Positions 3,600 through 61,326 of a DNA stretch of 64,000 bases are shown one piece after another (within the stretch, counting starts at the first letter, position 1; every line of letters begins with the position of its first letter). The notes under the pieces were generated by a model, which was not told the DNA's origin, did no database searches, and saw nothing but the letters and a program-made list of their open reading frames with translations. A program made the translations under genes and the position numbers. The DNA is taken from contig MZZL01000037.1 of the NCBI GenBank assembly GCA_002749535.1, positions 12,197 through 76,196 of the forward strand. The letters are read 5' to 3'. This DNA is from Apophysomyces variabilis. Its lineage: Eukaryota; Mucoromycota; Mucoromycetes; Mucorales; Mucoraceae.

Positions 3600-6500
3600 T
3601 TACTCTGCCCTAAGCTCAAGCTGTGTTGCGATTTCTTCGATTCTGCGCACGTACAATGTAGCGGAACTAGGAATATTACGTATTGAACGGAACTCTTGAT
3701 ATACTTTTTGTGCGTTTTCCTTGTCTTCACAATACAGCATGGCATTCATTGCAGCGTAGTACGTACGTATAAGAAGAGGTCGATGAGCAGATTCATGCCG
3801 GGTATACGTGTCTGTTAAAGCAGATGGTCGGTAGGGTAGCAGCCAGATGTTTCGTATGCTTCGGTAGTCATCAAATTCTAACGCACCCAACATCATGATA
3901 TCAAACGTTACCACGTCTGGAATCACCTTAGGATCAGGTGCCGGAACGTTTGATCCATCTCCAGTCAAACGTCTGCCAATCATGGTTTCAAACACGCTTC
4001 TTGCCACAGGATACCACGCCTTGTCCGCAGTGAGACCCATCAGTAAAGCATTGTAATGCACAGGAGTGAGTGTTACTCCATCCAGCTCTTTCCAAAACTT
4101 CCATGCTGCATCTGGTCTTTTCATTCGTGCAAAAGAAGTAAGCAACGTGGTGATCGCTAAAGCATCCGGCTTTTTGCCAGTCTTTACAATATCATCATAT
4201 AGTTTCCGTGCCGATTCCGCATGCGAATCACGTAATGAGATATCTTGTTCATACGAAGACCCGGACGGCAATCGCTCCGCCTTCTCTAACCGTGCTCTGC
4301 CAGCCAAACCATGTGCTTCCATTAGAACTGTCAATGCCGCCTGATCCAATCTGGAGCCGTCGCCATCCTTTAGACTGTCCAAGAGGGTGATGGCTCGCAT
4401 CTCATTCTCAGATATAGGGGACTCCAAAAGCATATTTGCTAAAATCGTATACATCGGTACATCTGCAGAGATTCCTCGGTCCACCATCTTCCGGAAGGTC
4501 GTATAGGCCTTATCGAACTCACACGCATCGGCATAGCCTTTGATAAGTGGCGAAAACGTAACCACATCTGGCTTAACATTGAATGGCGCGTTCGACATAC
4601 GTTCTATGACACTAGCCGCCTTGTCTAAATTGCCCAATTGCGCATATCCATACACCAAATGCGAGAAGATGTACGAGTTAGGTCTGATTCCGGTCTTTAC
4701 CATAGTCTTAAAGGTCCTTTCGGCTGCCGGCATATTCCCGGAATAAACAGCGCTGCGAATGGCAAGCGCATAAGTGATGACATCCGGTTTAAGTTGGTCT
4801 GAACTCATCGAGTCAAAAATAGACGAAATTGTATCTTCCCGTATTGCTCGCCGAGATTGGGCCTGTGTACCATGGATGGCCATCGCCAAATTATAGGTTC
4901 GCTTATTCGCGTCAATTTCCTTCATTGTCATATGATCAAACAACTCCGTAAATTGATTGATGTTTGTCTCAGGGTCCGACCTCAAGTCCAGAGCGGACAT
5001 TCTGGTATTATAAGATACCACGTCCTCTCGGATACCTCCTGCTAGCATAAGCCTAAGCCGTGGTTCGATAGCAGCACTGTACTCGGGCCGTTCCAGGTAA
5101 CAATGAAGAAGCATGTTATAGATCGTCATGCTGTTCGGTATCTGTTTCCGTTGCATCGTATCATAATACTTGAGTGCTTCATCGACATCGCCTCGCTTAA
5201 GATAGTAATTGATAAAACTACCATAAGTCACTGCCCCAGGAGTAATGTTCATACGGAGCATGGTATCGTATGTACGGAATGCTTCATTTACATCTTGTTT
5301 TTTCAAGTAATAGTTGATCAGCGTGTTGAACGTGTAGCTGTCCGGTGCGACCTTTCTCACTTTGGCAGCACTGGGTTCCTCTGGCGCTGCACAACTACAG
5401 CTGCACCCGCATTTTCCTTGTTTCTCTATGGCTAACATATCGATCGTCTTCTTCATCTCCTCTTCATCATCGGCTGCTGAATATGACCTTAACAATGCGT
5501 TGATGGTGAAAGTGTTAGGCTTATGTTTCAGTCGAACTAGCACTTGGTAAATGTCTTTGACCGAATCCAGCGCTCGGCGCATGTCTTCGCGTGCCTGCAA
5601 CCGTGCATGCCTGACAACCTGGTCAGCTATGCCATCCAACACGTTGTTGAACGTTCGTAAATTCGGTACAATGTTTGCTTCTATCATTCTGTTCATCCAT
5701 TCGTTCGCAACGCGATTGTCACTCTCTGTGTGACAATCTTTGAGAAAACCATTCAAAAAGATATTATAGGTCATACGATCTGGAGACAGTTTGGCTGTGC
5801 TGACCATCTTTTGGTAAAGTCTTTCTGCGCCGGTCAGATCAGACGCCTTTACTTTAGCTGCCAGCATTAGGTTGTAAGTGGGCAGGTCTGGCTCCAGCCC
5901 GCTTTTCTCTATATCATAAAATAATGTCTCTATCTTTGAGAGATATCGTCGACGGTGGAGTGCATCAACATGTTTGAATCTACGTATGTAGGCAGCCATC
6001 AGTTTGTTGTAGGTTAACGTTGTCAGCGGCTCTGAACAATAGCGAGATCGGTTACGGAACAGAACTTCGGCACGATCCACTCGATCTATTTTTCCAAGCA
6101 AGTCAATAATAACGGCGAAATCGCGCGCGTTCCACATATATCTCGTTTTCTGGGTGTGACTGAGCAGCGTTTCCAGCCGTTGCTCATAACGTTTCCGAAG
6201 ATCGTCATTCCTTTGCAATTCTTGTGAATGGCGCACGCTAACTCCGTATCGTAGTGTCGCAAATAAATTCTGCACAATTGCAGGGGGTATCGGGTTTTCA
6301 GTGGGATGATGCGTGGCGGATTCAAATGCCTTCCATGCCTTGTCCGTTTTGCCCGCCGTCAAGTATGTATGAATAGACAAAACGAGAGGTGTGCGTAGGT
6401 GTTTGTCGATTTCTGAGCTGACGTGCAGAGGAATGTTCTTTTGCAACTTTTTCTTCTCCAGGTCCATCCATGCTTTCTCAACCCGATCGGGTGGCGTTCT

Positions 6501-11388: not shown

Positions 11389-12688
11389 ATTGGAATGACC
11401 ACAGCAAATATGAAGACAAAGCGAGAGCAAGAAAAAGAAATAGAAAAAGAGAGAGAGAGAGAAAGAGAAAAGAAAAAAAAAAGGGAGAAGTTGGGAAGTG
11501 CGGGGAAGTAAAAATCGCAAAAGAGAAAGAGAGAGAGGGAGAGAAGTGAAACTGAAGTCCTTAACTTTTTTTTTTTCCACATTCATTTTTCCAACTTTTT
11601 CACTCTTCAAGAGTTTCAATATTATATAATCATATCCTTTTCCTATATGATATACACTTCAAGTTTCTTTCTATGGATTGTAACTTCTTGTTATTGATGA
11701 TTCTTCTTTCATGGGAATGGCATCAATTGTTCCTTGATGAATAACAAACATATTCTTTTCTTGTCCTCCCTCCCCTCTCTCCCCCCCTTCTCTCTCTCTC
11801 TCTCTTTTTCTCACCGTGAGAAAAATTAGTCCAAGTGAAAAATTTGTTTCTGTAACAGGTTTGGTGTAATCTATAGTTCGTTTTATTATTATTCCTTCTC
11901 GCTTGATTCCCGTCATCCTTTCCTAAGCGAGACAACGATGTATAGGCTGCATCACTTGCATGATACCAAACCGATATGGTAAACACCTTTGGAAAAACAG
12001 TATTTGGGCGGTCATTTAAAACTACAAATTAAAAAGATGGATGCAAGTGACAAACGAGAGTCAAAGTTATTTCGTCTGGCTTAATCATTCTTTATGGATG
12101 AAATAATAACAGCGGATCCCCCCCTTTTCTATAGGCCTTCAAAGCACGGGCCATGACCACGGGACATGTGGTTGGGAAAAAAAAAGGGGAAGAATGGGAT
12201 TCATTTAACGTAAGCACAACTGAGTGGTAATGTGTCATGTACAAATTGTAATCTATATATACGTATATATGTAATATGTGTATTACCTGTCTCTCTTTTC
12301 TTTGTGTTAATAAAGAGCGGACATGACAAAAAAAGGTAAGAAGTACGGAAAAAGGACAGAGAGAGAGAGAAAGAAAGAGAGAAATGAGAAACACGGATGC
12401 ATTTCGTCATCTATTTTGTACAACATCGCTCGATTTGGCAGATTACGATCGATAAAAGAGTGTGTGTGACAGGAAATAAAAAAGGGGATTTCTTTCCGCA
12501 TTCAGTTTTCATGTTCACAAGGACATTCTTCGCTTACATCCCGTGACTGAAATCCAAATGGTGAAGTTTAGCCTTTAAGCCTTGTGAAACGAACTGTCCA
12601 TTTTTTTTCTCTATTTTGCAAGCCCCATCTTGTATACATATCGTCATTGCATAGACATGAAGTAAAACCTTAAAGAGCCAGCCTTATT
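11389..12688. other. CT/GA-rich spacer between bHLH and PSO2 genes
   Basis: Contains long CT tracts on the minus strand (GA on plus, e.g. 11447-11464, 11528-11542, 12357-12380) and poly-A/T runs. It probably holds the bHLH promoter and 5' UTR and the PSO2 3' UTR. No exon could be supported. Confidence 0.4.
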
Positions 12689-14952: not shown

Positions 14953-16690
14953 GAAAATGTGATAGTGAACTTACCGGTGTGACCACCTGCGAAAGATAAA
15001 CGTTACTAAGACAATTCTAACCAGAAATATTGCCTAATACACGTACCGTAAAAAACGTAAAAGTCCCCAGAGGGACCTACCATATTCGTAACGGCAGTAT
15101 ATTGATCTAATGAGGACCGGGCAAACTCTCTTGGTCTTCCTTGCCCAGACCAAATTGACTCTGCAATCAAGAATAAATTTTTACTGGCCTAGACGTCTCG
15201 GTCCCATAACATCTTACAGTTTTTGCATACCAAGATGCTATGGTGAGAAACGCAATCGGCTGTGGTAAGCTTTTGCAGGGACCTGCATCTGCAGCTATAG
15301 CACACCTAAACGACGTTTGTGAGCATTATATTACTATCAATCGCTCCAACTTACTTGCAAAGAAAGGTATTCATCTATCGTGAGCACCAATAGTTCTTCG
15401 CGCTTTTCCCTCCGTCTCAAAGATCTCCATAGGATATTCACAACTCCCTTTCAGTGTCCTTTGTAGTTGCATTGATTGTTGAACATCCCGTCCCCAAATA
15501 CAATGAGTGGCACTTTCCTTTCAACAGTGAATTTCCTTTGCCTCCAGTGAGGTAAACGCTTGGTTTTGTTGAGCGTACTGCGCTCCGCAGATGTATTTGG
15601 CTGGGGAAGGCTATCAATTAACTGTTAATTACTGCAGGTAACGAACTGTCATGCAGATAAATACTCACCTTTGGTGTAACGGATTGCCAACTTCTGAATC
15701 TTTATTGACCTGCTTCTTCCGATTTTTTCGTTTCCTTTTCCGGGCTTTTCTGTTCGATTTCGTCCGTTTCCGTCTGCTACAGTTGTACTTTTTACCACCA
15801 AATGCTAGTATATTGACCATTTCCTCTCTTGCTCTTTGCACGCCTTGATATTCTTGAAATCGAGCTTCAGCTCGATGCTGACCATAAAACCGGAAAAGCA
15901 CGTCCATATGGCCGAATATAGATCGTAGATAACCGTTATAGGCTTCAATATGCGCTGTTTTTCCGGACTCCAATGAGGTTTCAATGTCTTGTATACCTTG
16001 CTGCTTCTTTTCCTTCTCCAGTTTATTCCGTCTATTCAGCGAACCAGTATACACGTAGTATCCTTTGGTTGAGCATCTCCTTATTTCATGAGATTCTGAT
16101 CCGCAGCCATAAGAAGCAGTAAAGATTTGATTGATGTCCGGATCAATCGCACATGGTGCAAAACTGTCATAGATATGGCTACCGTCAATATCTTCAACAG
16201 AGAGGCTGACCTCCGTGACCACTGACTCTGTCTTTCGTGCGCGAGCGAACTGGAAGTCAATCGCGTAGCCATCGGTGAAGATAACATTTTTGAAAGCGAT
16301 TTGTCCACTGTTACCAAAATTTTGAAGCTGCTCCAGACTAACGGATATTCTTGAGAAATTTGGTTACAAATAATCATAGTAAATACCTGTCAAATCCAAG
16401 CTTGTGGAAATCAAAAGCTTGATAAAACTGGGCAAGCTGGTCTTCATAGTCTTTTCAATGGCTGATGTTCGTTAACTGTTGAAGGGTCTTGGAATTAATG
16501 CAGATAAATCTCCAATGAGTTGAAGGAGACGGAGATAGAGAAAACAGTCGCGGTAGATCCTTAAAACTATCATTTGCCTTTTCGGCTTCTTGGGGTTTTT
16601 GGCGCGTTTTGTCTGTGAAGTAGTTGCACTTGCCTCTGAACGAGAACACGCTTTTGATTCAAAATCTTCTTATTGCGAATCTTCATAGTT
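14953..16690 (-). pseudogene. Fanzor-type (TnpB/OrfB-like) RNA-guided nuclease pseudogene A
   Basis: Reading the minus strand and joining frames gives a nearly complete OrfB/Fanzor layout. It runs from a pre-domain LPRLFSLSPSPSTHWRF near 16560, through a spliceable 37-nt intron after FHKLGFDR, to ITDGYAIDF-like and then RuvC-I CAIDPDINQIFTASYG (about 16140). The linker helices (IEAYNGYLRSIFGHMDVLF) and EEMVNILAFGGKKYN follow, a VPLIVFGDGMF strand (15481-15512), LTIDEYLSLQ, then half of a zinc ribbon ILVCKNCKMLWDRDV (15190-15230) and SKNLFLIAESIWSGQGRP. A final AGGHTG-like end lies near 14960. In-frame stops sit at 16455-16457 (TGA), 15451-15453 (TGA) and 15189-15191 (TAG), the last replacing the Asn of the RDVNA RuvC-III motif. 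The gene cannot encode an active enzyme. Confidence 0.75.
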
Positions 16691-40524: not shown

Positions 40525-41454
40525 CGTGATGGAAAGGTTACTGATAGATATCCTCTGTTTCTTTTCGTTTTCCTTTTTTTTCTTTAGTTCTTTTAGTTTA
40601 TTTAAAATAAGTATACACTGGGTAAATCGTTCGTGCGCAACAGGTAAGGAAGAAGAAAGAAAAAAGATAAGAGGCGAAAAGGAGAGCAGACGTTAAGAGG
40701 AAGAAAAGGGAAACCAACCTGTTAGGTTTTTTTATTGTGTTTGTGCACATTTCTAGCTGAATTGCGATTCGTTGGTGATAAGGTGACGAACCTGATAGGA
40801 CAGCGATAAGATCGGCACTAGAGTTCAGAAACCCACTGAGGGAAAAGACTGACTTTCTGATATGGCTTATCCTTTTTTTTTTTCTCACGAGCCTGAAATG
40901 CTGTTGTCTGCCTTTAGTTCTGTGTAGACTGTGCCAACTGGGACAGTCGATCAGTAGCTAAATTTATTTCATCCAATTTTTGTAACTATATCATTAAACA
41001 GAGAGTACAGTTCGATGCTATAATTATAACCTGACTATGTTGTCAGAGCAGTATATCCTTACATACACAAATTTTTATTTACTGACAGACATCCCATTCA
41101 GCTCAGACTAGTACTCCCTTCAGCAGGTCCTCAAATGTACTGAATGTTTAGATTCTTGCACAGACTTATGAAATATTTTTTGGCGGAATTCCACATTTAA
41201 TACCGCAGCTTTTTAAAGTTTACTGCTATTGACTTGTGGCTACCATGTCAAATCATCCCCATTTTTTTCTTTTGTAAAACGAATACATATACTTAAGTAG
41301 AAACTCGGCGGAAAAAATCGTGCTGCTTATCAATGATTAGGACATTGCGTTGTTTGAAATATTAATGCATCAGTCACCGTAGTTGCACACTGTTTTCGAT
41401 AGGCGGTTTATGAAGATGAGTACCTTGAAGAGCTGGGTAAGGTTGGAAGACATG
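40525..41454. other. Spacer between GATA gene and Fanzor element
   Basis: 0.9 kb of AT-rich sequence: the GATA-factor promoter side, then sequence flanking the element insertion. No gene was recognised. Confidence 0.35.
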
Positions 41455-41625
41455 TACAGTATCTCCCAAAGATAGTTTCACAAACTAGGAAAATCGAAGT
41501 CGCAGTTCAGTGGAATTAGATGTCGCAACAAATGAAAAAAGAAAAAAATTCAATGCCGTCCTTTTTCTACTTAGCTACCGCTTTACCTCATTTTAAAAGT
41601 GCGTCCACATCCTTGAGCTCTCCCC

Positions 41626-42303
41626 ATGCCCACTGTTAAACAGTCAAAAGCAGAACTCGCTGCTGCCAAGGCTGAAATTAGTAGGCTCAAACAACACAAC
41701 GCTTCACTTCTTGAGATGATTGGCTCAAGTTTTCCTAAATGCCAAGTCTGTTGAATCTATTTCCTCTAATACAACCCGTCCATTCAATCCACGTGCCTAA
41801 TACATATCGATATCTCCGCAAAAGCTATCCGTCGCATCAAGGCCCCTGTCCGGCCTGCTGTCGCCCGCTTCTTCCTTGCAAAAAGGCTTTTTTGATACTC
41901 ACACCATTCCCCGATATTTTTCCATCCCCCTCAATTTTTATCAGATTGATCTAGCCCGGGCGGACACAATTATTATTTTTGCGCTCATTTGAACCACTGA
42001 ATAAACCCAAGAAACTAGATAGTGCTACATTGAAATTCACTTAGCTCGAAAAAGAAAGTAATCCACAAACCTCTATAAGACGCATCCAGAGTCTGTAAGC
42101 TAGAATAATGACATATCTAATGCTCTTAACAACCTATCCCCTAAGGAAATCGACTTCTTAATATCAGAACTTGAGATGTACTGCGAGTTGTCAGGATGTC
42201 CTACTTGCAAAAAGATCATTAAAGGGGATTTTATGTATTCTTGCACTTTTACTGCAGTGAATATGATCTGGGTGGGCGTTTCAACCATTATTCCGTTTAT
42301 CTA
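41626..42303 (+). pseudogene. Decayed accessory or 5' coding region inside the Fanzor element
   Basis: An ATG at 41626 opens MPTVKQSKAELAAAKAEISR, a coiled helix, and stops at 41752-41754. Coding-like pieces continue in shifting frames: RIKAPVRPAVARFFLAK near 41840, and a final stretch NALNNLSPKEIDFLISELEM ... CPTCKKIIKGDFMYSC ending at a TAG (42301-42303). Several stops and shifts separate them. It could be the 5' part of the Fanzor gene or a separate element ORF; the C-x2-C is the only motif. No family is assigned. Confidence 0.4.
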
Positions 42304-42556
42304 GCAGAAAAAACGCCAATGAAAAGCATGTCGCCTACTTGTTTATTTTTCTTCACATGTCGTTTTCGTTCTTTTCCCGCCATTTTCTGTGAGCATGAAG
42401 TATTTTTTGATTCAAGGTAGACATTGAAGTATTATTGATGGGAACAGTACACCGAGTTATAAACTACATCCACACGTGTAATATTTATGTAACATTCCAT
42501 ACAAGTCCGTTGTACAATGAAATGGAAATGACATAAACTATGTAAACTTTGTTCGG

Positions 42557-45246
42557 ATGCACCCAAAGAACATAGTTTACAACTTCAAGGACCGTTACTG
42601 CGATTATCTTCGATTGCGACTGAAAGAAGTGGCTCGAGTACCAGTTGGTTGGCCTGCTCCAGATCAAGAAAGATTTGACGAATTCATTCAAGACATTATT
42701 CATTATGTTCATGACGGAATTCAACATCTAGCTGCACAGGAACGACAGCCGAGGTTCCAATACATCGCTGAAGCTAATATCCGCGAACAAGTCAACAAGT
42801 TTGTGACCAACATGGTGAATCGATACAAGAACTCCATTGAAGCATTTGATGAAGACAGGTGCCGACTTGAAGTTGAGAATCATGCAACGGTGCCCCCAGG
42901 ATGGCTAAGAAACAGGGACAAGCTTACCACTGCTTTATTTCAACAAATATGGGGCATGTCGGTCGATATTAGCGAAGCTGGTGCTGATCAAGAAGATTTT
43001 GAAGAATATGAGTAAGATCAAGAGGAAGAACGTCAAGCAACTGGCGACATCCTTGCTGGTTTAGCAAACGACGTTCATACCCAGATTGAAGATTTCATCA
43101 CCGCTGAGCGCAATCTCCAAGTAAAAGGCATTCGAGTGTCCGAGGTCAATCTGTCCGAATGTCTTGGTGAGAATGGGAGACAAGGAACAAACGGTGGTAA
43201 CAATGATGAAGAGAGCGGTGATGAAGATGACGAGGATGATGTGCTCCTCTGAACTTATGGAGGCAAACTTTCCAGGGCAAAGGCTGCAAGATTGATCCCG
43301 TTTATGATCTATTTCCTGGAAAGGCGAGAAGGTAATTCCCAATCTTTCGTTTTATGTCCTCTCCAAGCACATCATCATATCGCTATCCCTTTCAATCTTT
43401 CCTTTGCGACAACTTTGCTCTGAGCATTTCTCTCGTCCTATTATTCAGCAATTGGAGCAAGAATTAACAGCTGGTCCCAATGATCGACGCATTGCTGAAT
43501 TGACAAGAGGTAAGTAGAAGTTATTAATTGTATGTAGTTGAGCAAATTCACTTATATTTCAATTACAGAGAGAGACAATCTACAAAATGCATGTGAAAGA
43601 CTCCAGGGCATCAAGAGCAGAGATCCATTCAGCGCACTCTTCGATATCCGTCGGCAAGCTACCATTACAAGAGACGGAGGCGTTGATGTCCGAGACCGGG
43701 GTTACATGCGATGGTTGAACCAGCGAATACCAGGCAATGAAAACAAGCTTCGTTTCTCTCGACGTCGTGTCTTTCGCACTGACGGTGTTCGCCTATATTG
43801 TATATATAATGATTGGCTCAGGTTACGTCGTGGAAATACTACATGCAAGTATTTGACGGAGATCAGACGAACAACAAGAGAGACGTTGAAGGACACATGG
43901 CAAGCCGGCTCATCTAGGGATCAGTACGATTATCTCCAGCATTACTATGAGGTAGTTTGGTCTGGACTTTGGAGAAGTATGTGCTGCTGCTAGTGTGTTC
44001 CGAACGAGGGAGCCTGGACTATACGGTTCCCAGCTCACTATCAAGCGAGGCTATCTGTATGGCAGAACTATTCCAAACCGCGACTGGCTAGAAGCTCGCA
44101 AGGCTGCCAACAACATTGACGACATCGAGGCTGCTTTAAGTGAAGGATCACCACGAAGCACTATGACAGATATCGGGAGTACCTGCGACAAGTCAAGACA
44201 AACGAGAATGGTCTTCGGTTATGGAAGTTTTACTCCAACCGATCTGTCCGTCGCAGAATCTGGGACAATGTGATATCTCAGAGATCGTGTCTTGACAAGG
44301 CTTGCTACCTCATCACGAATCAAGCTAGGCGTACTTTCGACATGAATCACGAAATGGATGATAATCGTAGACATGTCGATGAGCCTCGTCTTGTCTACGC
44401 TTTTGGCTTAGACGGGATGAGTCGAAAGTCAAGACGAGGGGGTTTGGCGCCTATGGACCACAAGATTGCCAATGCTTTGTACCGGAAGATCAACCAGAAG
44501 AATCGAAACAAGGACAGACAACATGCCGACGTATGCAGTCGAATCGATGAATATCTCACATCGAAGGTATGTTGTCGCTGTTCCAAGGAAGGTCAAGACC
44601 GAGGTGTGGACTTTTTGCGACGACCTCCTACGGCATCGGTACAAGACAGAGCTCGATTGGAGAACGGTCAGGAGAAAGTGCTGCGCGTAGTTCAGTGTGC
44701 GAACTGTGATTGTACGTTCCACCGGGATGGTAATGCAGCAGACAACTAGGCTATCATTGCACGATACATGCTACAGTTTCAGCAGCGTCCTCGTTGGTTC
44801 GTCCGTCCGTCAAGGCGTCTGGAAGCGGCTGGCGAAGAGGAGGCGACGGTGATGACTGATCGTGCAGGGCTTCAACAGAGAGCTAGTGGTGGAGAGGTGA
44901 CGGAGGTGCCTGAGATTGCCGAACCTCGACGACACCCTAGCAAAGGATGGCGGTGACTACCCCTCTAGAAGAGTGAGCTAGTGGCCGAGAGGTAGCGGGG
45001 GCACAGGAGGTGCCTGGGATTGCCGAGCCTCGACAACGCCCTAGCCAAGAAGCGGCGGTGATAACCCCAACTGCACGACTTCGAACAAGAGCCAGCCAAA
45101 CCGAGACTATGGTTGAACCACCCAGGTCTCGCAGAGGAATCAGCCGACGAGAAGAAGAAAGACCAGAATCGTCCCGAGCTCCTTTAAGGCGATCTGAGAG
45201 GCAGCAAGCAAAAAGGCAGAAAAGGATCCACGAGTCAAGTGGATAG
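42557..45246 (+). pseudogene. Fanzor-type (TnpB/OrfB-like) RNA-guided nuclease pseudogene B
   Basis: The N-terminal helical region begins MHPKNIVYNFKDRYCDYLRL. After two in-frame stops (43013-43015 TAA, 43250-43252 TGA) it continues through RLIPFMIYFLERRE and a central region with RVFRTDGVRLYCIYNDW. RuvC-I reads FGLDFGEVCAAASVFRT (about 43955-44005), reached only through a frameshift near 43955. A second shift near 44150 leads into LWKFYSNRSVRRRIWDN. The catalytic end is DEYLTSKVCCRC (44546-44581), VVQCANCDCTFHRDGNAADN and a TAG at 44747-44749, with AIIARYM beyond it. This C-x2-C ... C-x2-C ... RD-x-NAA-x-N order is the OrfB zinc ribbon plus RuvC-III signature. Active Asp and Glu positions look intact; the stops and shifts make it non-functional. 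Confidence 0.8.
44881..45067 (+). repeat. Imperfect tandem duplication in the 3' part of the Fanzor gene
   Basis: Two copies of an 80-90-bp unit, 44881-44961 and 44976-45067, both running from AGCTAGTGG through GATTGCCGA(A/G)CCTCGAC to GCGGTGA. They encode related Pro/Glu-rich segments (EVPEIAEPRRHPS and EVPGIAEPRQRPS). The duplicated tail precedes a basic, Arg-rich C terminus ending at 45246. Confidence 0.6.
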
Positions 45247-45315
45247 GGCTTTTACGCCCGGTATTTAGTAAGTGTCATTGAATACTATTGTTATTTTTCT
45301 TCTATTACTCATCGA

Positions 45316-45514
45316 CTGAAATTTATATATGCATATGGCATTCACTTGGCAGGGAGATGGGTAAGGCGTTGTCAGTTTTATGACAGGCATGTAAAAGTGG
45401 TCATGCGAACTCTTATAACACGACAATTAATATGATTTGTTAGCGCCAAGCCCAGTTTCCAAAATGCTCCAAGTGAATTTGCTAGATGCGACTTTAATTT
45501 TTGGAAATAAAGTA
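45316..45514 (+). repeat. Right-end block of the Fanzor element, shared with the 60.8-kb copy
   Basis: About 195 bases immediately after the Fanzor coding region match 60836-61034 at roughly 92% by eye, including GGCATTCACTTGGCA and ACTCTTATAACACGACAATT. In Fanzor and TnpB elements the guide RNA is transcribed from the ORF 3' end into the right transposon end, so this is the candidate scaffold region; that role is inference. Confidence 0.6.
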
Positions 45515-45528
45515 CTAGTCTGCCAAAA

Positions 45529-45770
45529 CTACTGGAACACAGCGTCAATATATTCTGCAAAGTTTTGTAACATCTCGTTTGATCCCTGAATAGAATACCT
45601 GTATACGTGTTGGTCATCGAGCGGCAGTCCGTTTTTGTACGATATTGACGATCTGTAAAACAGAGTTGCGGAAGAAATAGACGATGCAACAGCGTTGATG
45701 ACTACTGGCAAGGCCCGAAATGCTCCCAGCTGACAGCTGATATGTACCGAAGACCAGCGCTGGTCTACTT
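45529..45770 (-). other. Unidentified coding-like segment, probable gene remnant
   Basis: About 80 codons are open on the minus strand down to a TAG just past 45530, with protein-like text ALPVVINAVASSISSATLFY, GLPLDDQHVYRYSIQ and NEMLQNFAEYIDAVF. No ATG in a sensible place and no recognised family. It begins 15 bp outside the element's right border, so it belongs to the host or to another element. Confidence 0.3.
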
Positions 45771-60757: not shown

Positions 60758-61034
60758 TACAGTATCTCCCAACAATAATTTCGCAAACTACGAATATCCA
60801 AGTTGCAGTCCAGTGGATTTACATGTCGCAATGAATGAAAATTTATATATGCATCTGGCATTCACTTGGCAAGGAGACGGGTATGGCGTCGTCAGTTTTA
60901 TGACAGGTATGTAAAAGTGGTCAATTAGAACTCTTATAACACGACAATTAATGTAATTTGTTAGCGTCAAGCTCAGTTTCCAAAATGCGCCAAGTGAATT
61001 TGCTAGATGCGACTTTAATTTTTGAAATAAAGTA
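60758..61034 (+). mobile_element. Miniature (internally deleted) derivative of the Fanzor element
   Basis: 277 bp bounded by TA on each side. Bases 60758-60840 match the left end of the 41.5-kb element (TACAGTATCTCCCAA...) and 60836-61034 match its right end; about 3.8 kb of internal sequence, including all coding DNA, is missing. The junction lies at AATGAAAA. It is therefore a MITE-like, non-autonomous copy in the same orientation. Confidence 0.75.
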
Positions 61035-61326
61035 CCATGTCGTTCTACTGTATATGGCCATGGTCATAGAGGACGCGTCGGGCGGTCATTCCGTCTCTCG
61101 CTTTTTGTCTGAGCTGAAAGCAAAGACAACAACCAAACGATGCATGTCCAGATTCTCTAGCGATGGGTGGGGGTGATAAAAATGTTATGGAGAGAATGGG
61201 ATGGATCTGAGAGCTGACATCAAGGATTTCTCGGATTTGATCATAATCGATGCGCTTTTGGTGGGCGGCCTGTGCTTTCATGCCCATATTCTGCAGAAAG
61301 TACTATTTAAACGCTGTGAACATACA

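Follow-up and report, generated by a model that had tools for sequence, protein, structure and literature searches.

Is the 4.06-kb unit around a broken Fanzor gene in Apophysomyces variabilis a complete mobile element, and if not, what did the element from which it came contain? The unit lies on contig MZZL01000037.1 (assembly GCA_002749535.1), in a stretch of 64,000 nucleotides (positions 12,197 to 76,196 of the forward strand) that was analyzed as a whole and is called the window below; positions are those of the window. Fanzors are RNA-guided nucleases of eukaryotes, and the service that they render to their transposons is still inferred. A first-pass annotation, made from the letters alone, had described the unit as the complete outline of a Fanzor element in a fungal chromosome. 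Comparison with other copies in the genome points to a different answer, namely that window 41457–45512 is most probably (about 0.85) a decayed, internally deleted, non-autonomous DNA transposon with inverted-repeat ends and a TA target, carrying a Fanzor1-like gene. The ends, TA flanks, copy number, a junction shared among copies, the Fanzor zinc-ribbon and RuvC-III region and a longer parental form are read directly from the DNA.

Ends, target sites and copies of the family

TA stands immediately outside each end of the element proper (Table 1). BLAST similarity to four other loci started at 41451 (L012), 41455 (L015), 41450 (L016) and 41438 (L014) and stopped at 45514–45516 in all of them. 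The ends proposed in the first-pass annotation were accurate to within a few bases and, as it had expected, were found together around other copies, at five further loci (L012, L014, L015, L016 and C64) and in 58 pairs among the listed genomic ends. The window copy and these five had TA at both ends, and no duplication longer than TA was seen by eye at any of them. TACAG formed the left edge in six of eight left-end rows besides the window, the exceptions being L010 and L023, and TA followed ...AAAG or a variant at the right edge in 13 of 17 right-end rows, which leave out the window and one chance match. The TA target duplication, a criterion for Tc1/mariner elements, is thus present, and alignment by eye revealed an imperfect inverted repeat between the ends (CAGTATCTCCCAAAAATAATTTCGCA against the complement of TGCGACTTTAATTTTTGGAAATAAAG). 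A Helitron (5' TC, 3' CTRR, insertion at A/T, no duplication) was considered and rejected: the copies stop at TA, CTRR follows the right end in the window (CTAG) and L010 (CTAA) alone, and the other right flanks compared do not fit.

The family is numerous. With up to three mismatches allowed, the genome contains 129 matches to the left-end 24-mer (63 on one strand, 66 on the other) and 145 to the right-end 26-mer (76 and 69), compared with none for the reversed pattern of either. A TA-anchored pattern gave 115 matches, and TA was present in 95 of the 100 listed, which is not independent proof because the pattern, searched with up to three mismatches, itself held TA. At the left flank of 100 listed sites, the tetramer that closes with TA was most often TATA (47), followed by AATA (17), TGTA (10) and CATA (8). 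When 100 left and 100 right ends, of the 129 and 145, were paired on the same strand within 20 kb, a partner was found for 58 of the 100 left ends. The paired sizes were 178–278 bp (18), 778 bp (1), 1261–1311 bp (5), 1660–1737 bp (27) and, above 2 kb (7), 2528 twice, 4094, 6831, 8907, 10178 and 14581 bp, so that 45 of 58 pairs belonged to the 0.2- or 1.7-kb forms; the largest may be mispaired or hold insertions, since pairing takes the nearest end. DNA probes for the Fanzor gene and for the XPG-like nuclease described below gave 23 and 26 match rows, respectively. The deletion derivative that had been noted elsewhere in the window was borne out, at 278 bp; it consists of 60758–60841 joined to 60839–61035.

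At C71:590098–600227, a same-strand pair of family ends encloses 10.2 kb in which neither Fanzor nor XPG-like DNA was matched; this is possibly an element carrying the mobilizing enzyme, or a short element with a nested insertion.

The Fanzor gene and the right-end fold

Fanzor coding remnants were delimited by tblastn with the read-through of one copy as query (Table 1). The Fanzor-type nuclease reported by the first-pass annotation is present, with every motif that it named in its place: GLDFGE (RuvC-I) at 43959–43976, DEYLTS at 44546–44563, a TNB zinc ribbon at 44546–44707 with CCRC (44570–44581) and CANC (44696–44707), and HRDGNAAD (RuvC-III) at 44720–44743. Its description as a relic also stands, because GLDFGE and the zinc ribbon, which start 587 bases apart, are in different frames and the window copy is therefore broken. 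The Fanzor1 pattern as written in PMC3627910, D-X(125,275)-[TS][TS]-X-X-C4 finger-X(5,50)-RD, was found, with D at 43965 and TS at 44558, about 197 codons apart over a stretch in which the window frame breaks, then CCRC, CANC, five residues and RD.

Profile searches produced the OrfB/Fanzor match that the first-pass annotation had required of 44270–44770. PF07282 (TNB) matched the window open reading frame (ORF) 44144–44746 with an E of 1.5e-5 and 25.5 bits, just under the cut-off of 26.3; in a genome-wide scan, in which the ORF was taken with its neighbors, it scored 27.3 bits and was flagged over that cut-off. A zinc-ribbon profile built from eight sequences (the window copy with three copies close to it, and four further Fanzor-like loci in the genome) matched 27 distinct PDB sequences at E ≤ 1, many of them TnpB or Cas12 chains, the best being LaTranC (2.8e-8), followed by SpuFz1 (1.1e-7) and PpFz1 (1.1e-3). 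Because the four further loci broaden this profile, it speaks for the superfamily rather than for close kinship with SpuFz1. Weighing against the assignment, the single window sequence found at E ≤ 1 in PDB only SpuFz1, at E 0.4, through DEY.TS..C.RCS. The NCBIfam TnpB model gave 9.3 bits (cut-off 100), phmmer of the read-through against PDB a single match to an unrelated kinase (E 0.065), and single-sequence structure prediction of the 201-aa window frame was unusable (mean predicted local distance difference test, pLDDT, 33.9). The label Fanzor1 was chosen on account of the inverted-repeat transposon type and the large size.

Fanzor-like zinc ribbons are common in this genome, with at least 150 TNB matches at E ≤ 1 (150 of 164 candidates scored); dozens exceed the Pfam cut-off, and several have identical scores in 279-codon frames. 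A second, weak relic of this kind lies on the minus strand of the window at 15111–15302 (TNB E 0.08; tblastn E 0.15). The C-terminal tail of the Fanzor remnant, at 44874–45068, contains an imperfect tandem duplication of about 100 bp whose halves are 75% alike, an arrangement that seems to vary among copies of the element.

Downstream of the gene, the right end folds at -59.9 kcal/mol (z -3.87; none of 200 shuffles as good) and is a candidate scaffold for a guide RNA (omega RNA). When the fold was projected onto 18 right ends, two of them in the window and 16 at other loci, 88.4% of 1186 cells paired, compared with 36.7–44.8% for slid versions and a mean of 87.8% in shuffles, 3 of 500 of which reached the observed value. 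Such pairing suggests that the fold is conserved, with weak covariation, for the seven pairs changed on both sides fall within the range of the controls. Two of these control results count against a conserved RNA: 114 of 500 shuffles had at least seven such pairs, and sliding the fold by +3 gave nine, more than the real fold. The RNAalifold consensus was shallow (-10 kcal/mol), and Rfam had no match at E ≤ 0.5 in 41400–45600. The fold may instead be a structure bound by the transposase, or a long subterminal inverted repeat, with no guide RNA involved, an explanation in keeping with the weak covariation, the Rfam result and the retention of the fold in the 278-bp derivative, and one to which a little less than an even chance is given. 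A guide-RNA scaffold is nevertheless preferred, as the fold lies 3' of the Fanzor gene on the same strand and ends at the element end, resembling the right-end element RNAs (reRNAs) of insect-virus Fanzor1, which according to PMC10711439 include the inverted repeat and the duplication and extend about 15 nt beyond the latter; moreover, 'ghost' Spu-1 elements without a Fanzor ORF are on record (PMC10432273).

A longer form with a probable second nuclease

The 4.06-kb unit did not prove to be the complete element, as three copies (C64, C68 and C75) hold about 4.9 kb more at 42566–42569. The C64 copy, whose ends are 8.9 kb apart, shares the left end and left arm as far as 42566–42569, after which come the extra DNA and then the window sequence from 42566 onward, so that positions 4950 and 9839 of C64 meet at the window junction. 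C75 and C68 have the same order and continue both sides of that junction; C68 was read from the left arm into the N-terminal half of Fanzor, and C75 has an unread stretch. In C59 the extra coding part is present, and the left arm was not seen in the 15 kb examined. Upstream of 42566, C64 and C59 are unlike the 4-kb copies and have about 4.75 kb in common. The extra DNA includes the N-terminal half of Fanzor and, upstream of it, an XPG/FEN1-like nuclease, which gives a parental layout that starts with the left end and about 3 kb in which no coding trace was detected, followed by XPG/FEN1/EXO1-like nuclease, Fanzor, right-end fold and right end. The same junction with its 4-base overlap was found on different contigs, in the window, L012, L014, L015 and L016, and because these five 4-kb copies have one junction, the window copy is assigned to a deleted, once-mobile subfamily. 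Its identity on different contigs, together with the different breakpoints of L010, implies a single deletion as the origin of the 4-kb form, which moved afterwards.

In C75 the upstream nuclease frame opens with MGLKGFQAYL, and its read-through, which includes a frame break and intron-like gaps, contains in order VDFCCDFF, VFDGDRLSAK, HEAPFDADPEVVYL, SRDGDLFAYQG and ALAATCGNDYAKNLRGKSFKRVKAAL. We take this order to be the FEN1/EXO1/XPG pattern, with its catalytic acidic motifs and the Asp of the helix-turn-helix. Given this assignment, one fused protein is more likely than two, by about two to one, because of three sets of open frames. In C75 a single 473-codon frame is already open ahead of the helix-turn-helix-like GNDY, continues across a basic linker and extends into the N-terminal half of Fanzor, a 351-codon frame in C68 begins just after GNDY, and in C64 one stop separates the frame of GNDY from a 667-codon frame; C59 likewise has a stop. 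The alternative of two neighboring genes in one element draws on the joining of the upstream exons by inference from DNA and on the linker, where selection is not measurable because the copies compared are too alike; in view of these frames it is rather unlikely. C59 and C75 differ over the linker and N-terminal half at 1 position in 333, 0 in 591 and 2 in 429, and so are not independent there, whereas the XPG-like part diverges by about 16–18% and the compared C-terminal part of Fanzor by 7%. These 3 differences in 1353 bases between diverged flanks (L013/L030 in C59, L040 in C75) may reflect gene conversion, recent recombination or an assembly join.

The parental element may, tentatively, be described as encoding a single protein in which a FEN1/EXO1-like flap nuclease or exonuclease is joined to an RNA-guided Fanzor, so that the same polypeptide would find and cut the target and trim the end thus made, in the guided maintenance of copies of a TA-target transposon, although this proposal has slightly less than an even chance. 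If true, the fusion would suggest that guided cutting is coupled mechanically and directly to the processing of ends. The architecture was not found in the open-licence literature searched and would be new if real; the Fanzor element itself joins a known kind. The XPG/FEN1-like nuclease joined to Fanzor in the long form merits follow-up.

Codon-position differences point to past selection on both parts. Over the XPG-like stretch, differences at first, second and third positions were 14/20/42 against C59 (p 7e-5), 10/11/22 against C92 (p 0.012) and 25/17/40 against C95 (p 0.003), and the C-terminal part of Fanzor gave 217/205/319 across 11 diverged copies (p 2e-8; sites pooled, not independent). 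The third-position excess was absent from eight close copies of the latter (75/58/74, p 0.25) and from the close pair C64 and C75 over the XPG-like part (4/7/5). This pattern indicates genes that were under selection earlier, in copies that are now decaying. No unbroken gene was found among the copies with frames listed, and present activity is for this reason not claimed.

Several scores weigh against the nuclease assignment. Pfam XPG_I reached E 0.016 (best member 0.008; two of four members) with 16.1 bits (cut-off 24.9), and E 0.032, again under the cut-off, against the read-through; XPG_N reached E 0.091 (three of four members) with 13.7 bits (cut-off 22). In a genome scan with XPG_I, the sole match of the family was the C75 copy, at 17.4 bits (cut-off 24.9), and in a PDB profile search Exonuclease 1 (3qea), two stretches of which aligned collinearly with an overall E of 0.66, was outranked by an unrelated iron-sulfur protein at E 0.39. 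The name is kept at 'XPG/FEN1-like' because both Pfam scores are under their curated cut-offs, and the Exonuclease 1 match is treated as supporting because the iron-sulfur protein scores slightly better. A chance resemblance would agree with these scores, and with a signature whose regular expression was written after the sequence had been seen. It is nonetheless improbable: the two Pfam models match in the right order, the acidic positions are ordered and followed by a helix-turn-helix-like GNDY...LRG, a combination matched by none of 200000 shuffles, and the XPG-like stretch bears the mark of coding selection.

That the 4.06-kb unit is complete and the extra 4.9 kb of the long copies an insertion, as the 4-kb form with both ends at five loci might suggest, is very improbable, because the 667-aa frame of C64 (L011:1295–3295) crosses the right junction unbroken, L010 keeps part of the extra DNA with other breakpoints, and the diverged C92 and C95 copies have the XPG part adjoining their Fanzor part; the long form is thus considered ancestral.

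Mobilization and known relatives

A mobilizing enzyme was sought within the long copies, with results that weigh against the favored reading. By eye, no DDE_3 match lay inside the C64 or C75 elements among the matches listed of 196 (150 of 411 candidates scored), nor did any of 37 DDE_1 matches. A transposase hidden left of the nuclease was also considered, and six frames over 2.9 kb of C75 yielded one unrelated, sub-threshold Pfam match. Since no listed DDE match lay in either copy, the element was not filed as mariner. A TA-specific transposase supplied in trans would have moved the family by cut and paste. The right-end structure could have served as scaffold for a guide read from flanking host DNA, and Fanzor might have cut matching sites that were unoccupied or vacated, whereupon repair templated by an element-bearing copy would have kept or spread the element. 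The XPG-like domain, probably fused N-terminally, may have trimmed the resulting ends or flaps. The family has more than 100 matches per end, falls into several deletion classes and includes a long form that bears a second nuclease, and so offers a natural set for testing what movement requires.

Among known systems, SPu-1 with SpuFz1 of Spizellomyces punctatus is similar in being fungal, with inverted repeats of about 30 bp, a TA duplication and a Fanzor1 (PMC3627910), and in having ORF-less 'ghost' copies (PMC10432273). SPu-1 is, however, about 2.1 kb long with a single ORF for a 633-aa protein, whereas the long form here spans about 9 kb, has intron-like gaps and carries an XPG-like nuclease upstream of Fanzor. 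The target-adjacent motif of SpuFz1 is CATA, which was far rarer at the left flanks here than TATA. The Fanzor1-bearing Mariner elements PGv-1 and PUl-1 share the TA duplication and inverted ends, and PGv-1 also has a second endonuclease besides Fanzor, in its case a separate GIY-YIG protein; both encode a Mariner transposase (PMC3627910), unlike C64 and C75, where none was found. MCi-2 and MCi-5 of Mucor circinelloides are likewise fungal Fanzor families with many copies and an unsettled transposase (PMC3627910), but they have duplications of 11–12 bp or 6 bp and lack clear inverted ends. Membership of the MCi-2 family (11–12-bp duplications ATAATTNNNN(N), no inverted ends) was ruled out by the TA flanks and inverted ends. 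PpFz1 of Parasitella parasitica, matched in the zinc-ribbon region, has a cyclophilin-binding RuvC insertion (PMC11423790); this family has an XPG-like N-terminal part. FEN1/EXO1/XPG nucleases have the same order of FDG, AP.EAD and D.DL motifs, plus GNDY; the family differs from them in scoring under their cut-offs and in the Fanzor that follows in frame in C75.

Table 1. Features of the element copy and its short derivative in the window.
Feature	Position	Strand	Evidence
TA, target-site duplication, left	41455–41456		TACAG in 6/8 rows; 95/100 listed genome sites
Left terminal inverted repeat, imperfect (CAGTATCTCCCAAA...)	41457–41484	+	Copy comparison; 129 genome matches against 0 in control
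Left arm	41485–42565		Gene sought: no sign of codon periodicity in comparison with three diverged copies
185-bp segment, either orientation among copies	41741–41925		Copy comparison
Deletion junction, ~4.9 kb of long copies missing	42566–42569		AAGA shared at join
Fanzor N-terminal coding remnant, with stops	42566–43333	+	tblastn (42566–42688, 42827–43333); 667-aa C64 frame
Short exon-like piece, intron-like gap on each side	43449–43508	+	tblastn
Fanzor C-terminal half, frame broken	43568–44896	+	tblastn, profiles, motifs
Right-end stem structure, candidate guide-RNA (omega RNA) scaffold	45315–45514	+	Folding, 18-sequence mapping
Right terminal inverted repeat, imperfect	45487–45512	-	Copy comparison; 145 genome matches against 0 in control
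TA, target-site duplication, right	45513–45514		13/17 right-end rows besides window
278-bp derivative: left 84 bp plus right 197 bp of element	60758–61035	+	Copy comparison

Frames neighboring the element in the window matched GATA, RGS and bHLH domains, and one matched the fungal Zn2Cys6 domain just under its cut-off. Within the left arm, the 185-bp segment lay one way round at 22 loci and the other way round at 18 (40 scored of 96 candidates). Inverted repeats flanking it were limited to 6-base matches, and for this reason the flip is treated as probably a subfamily marker; repeated inversion may be the alternative.

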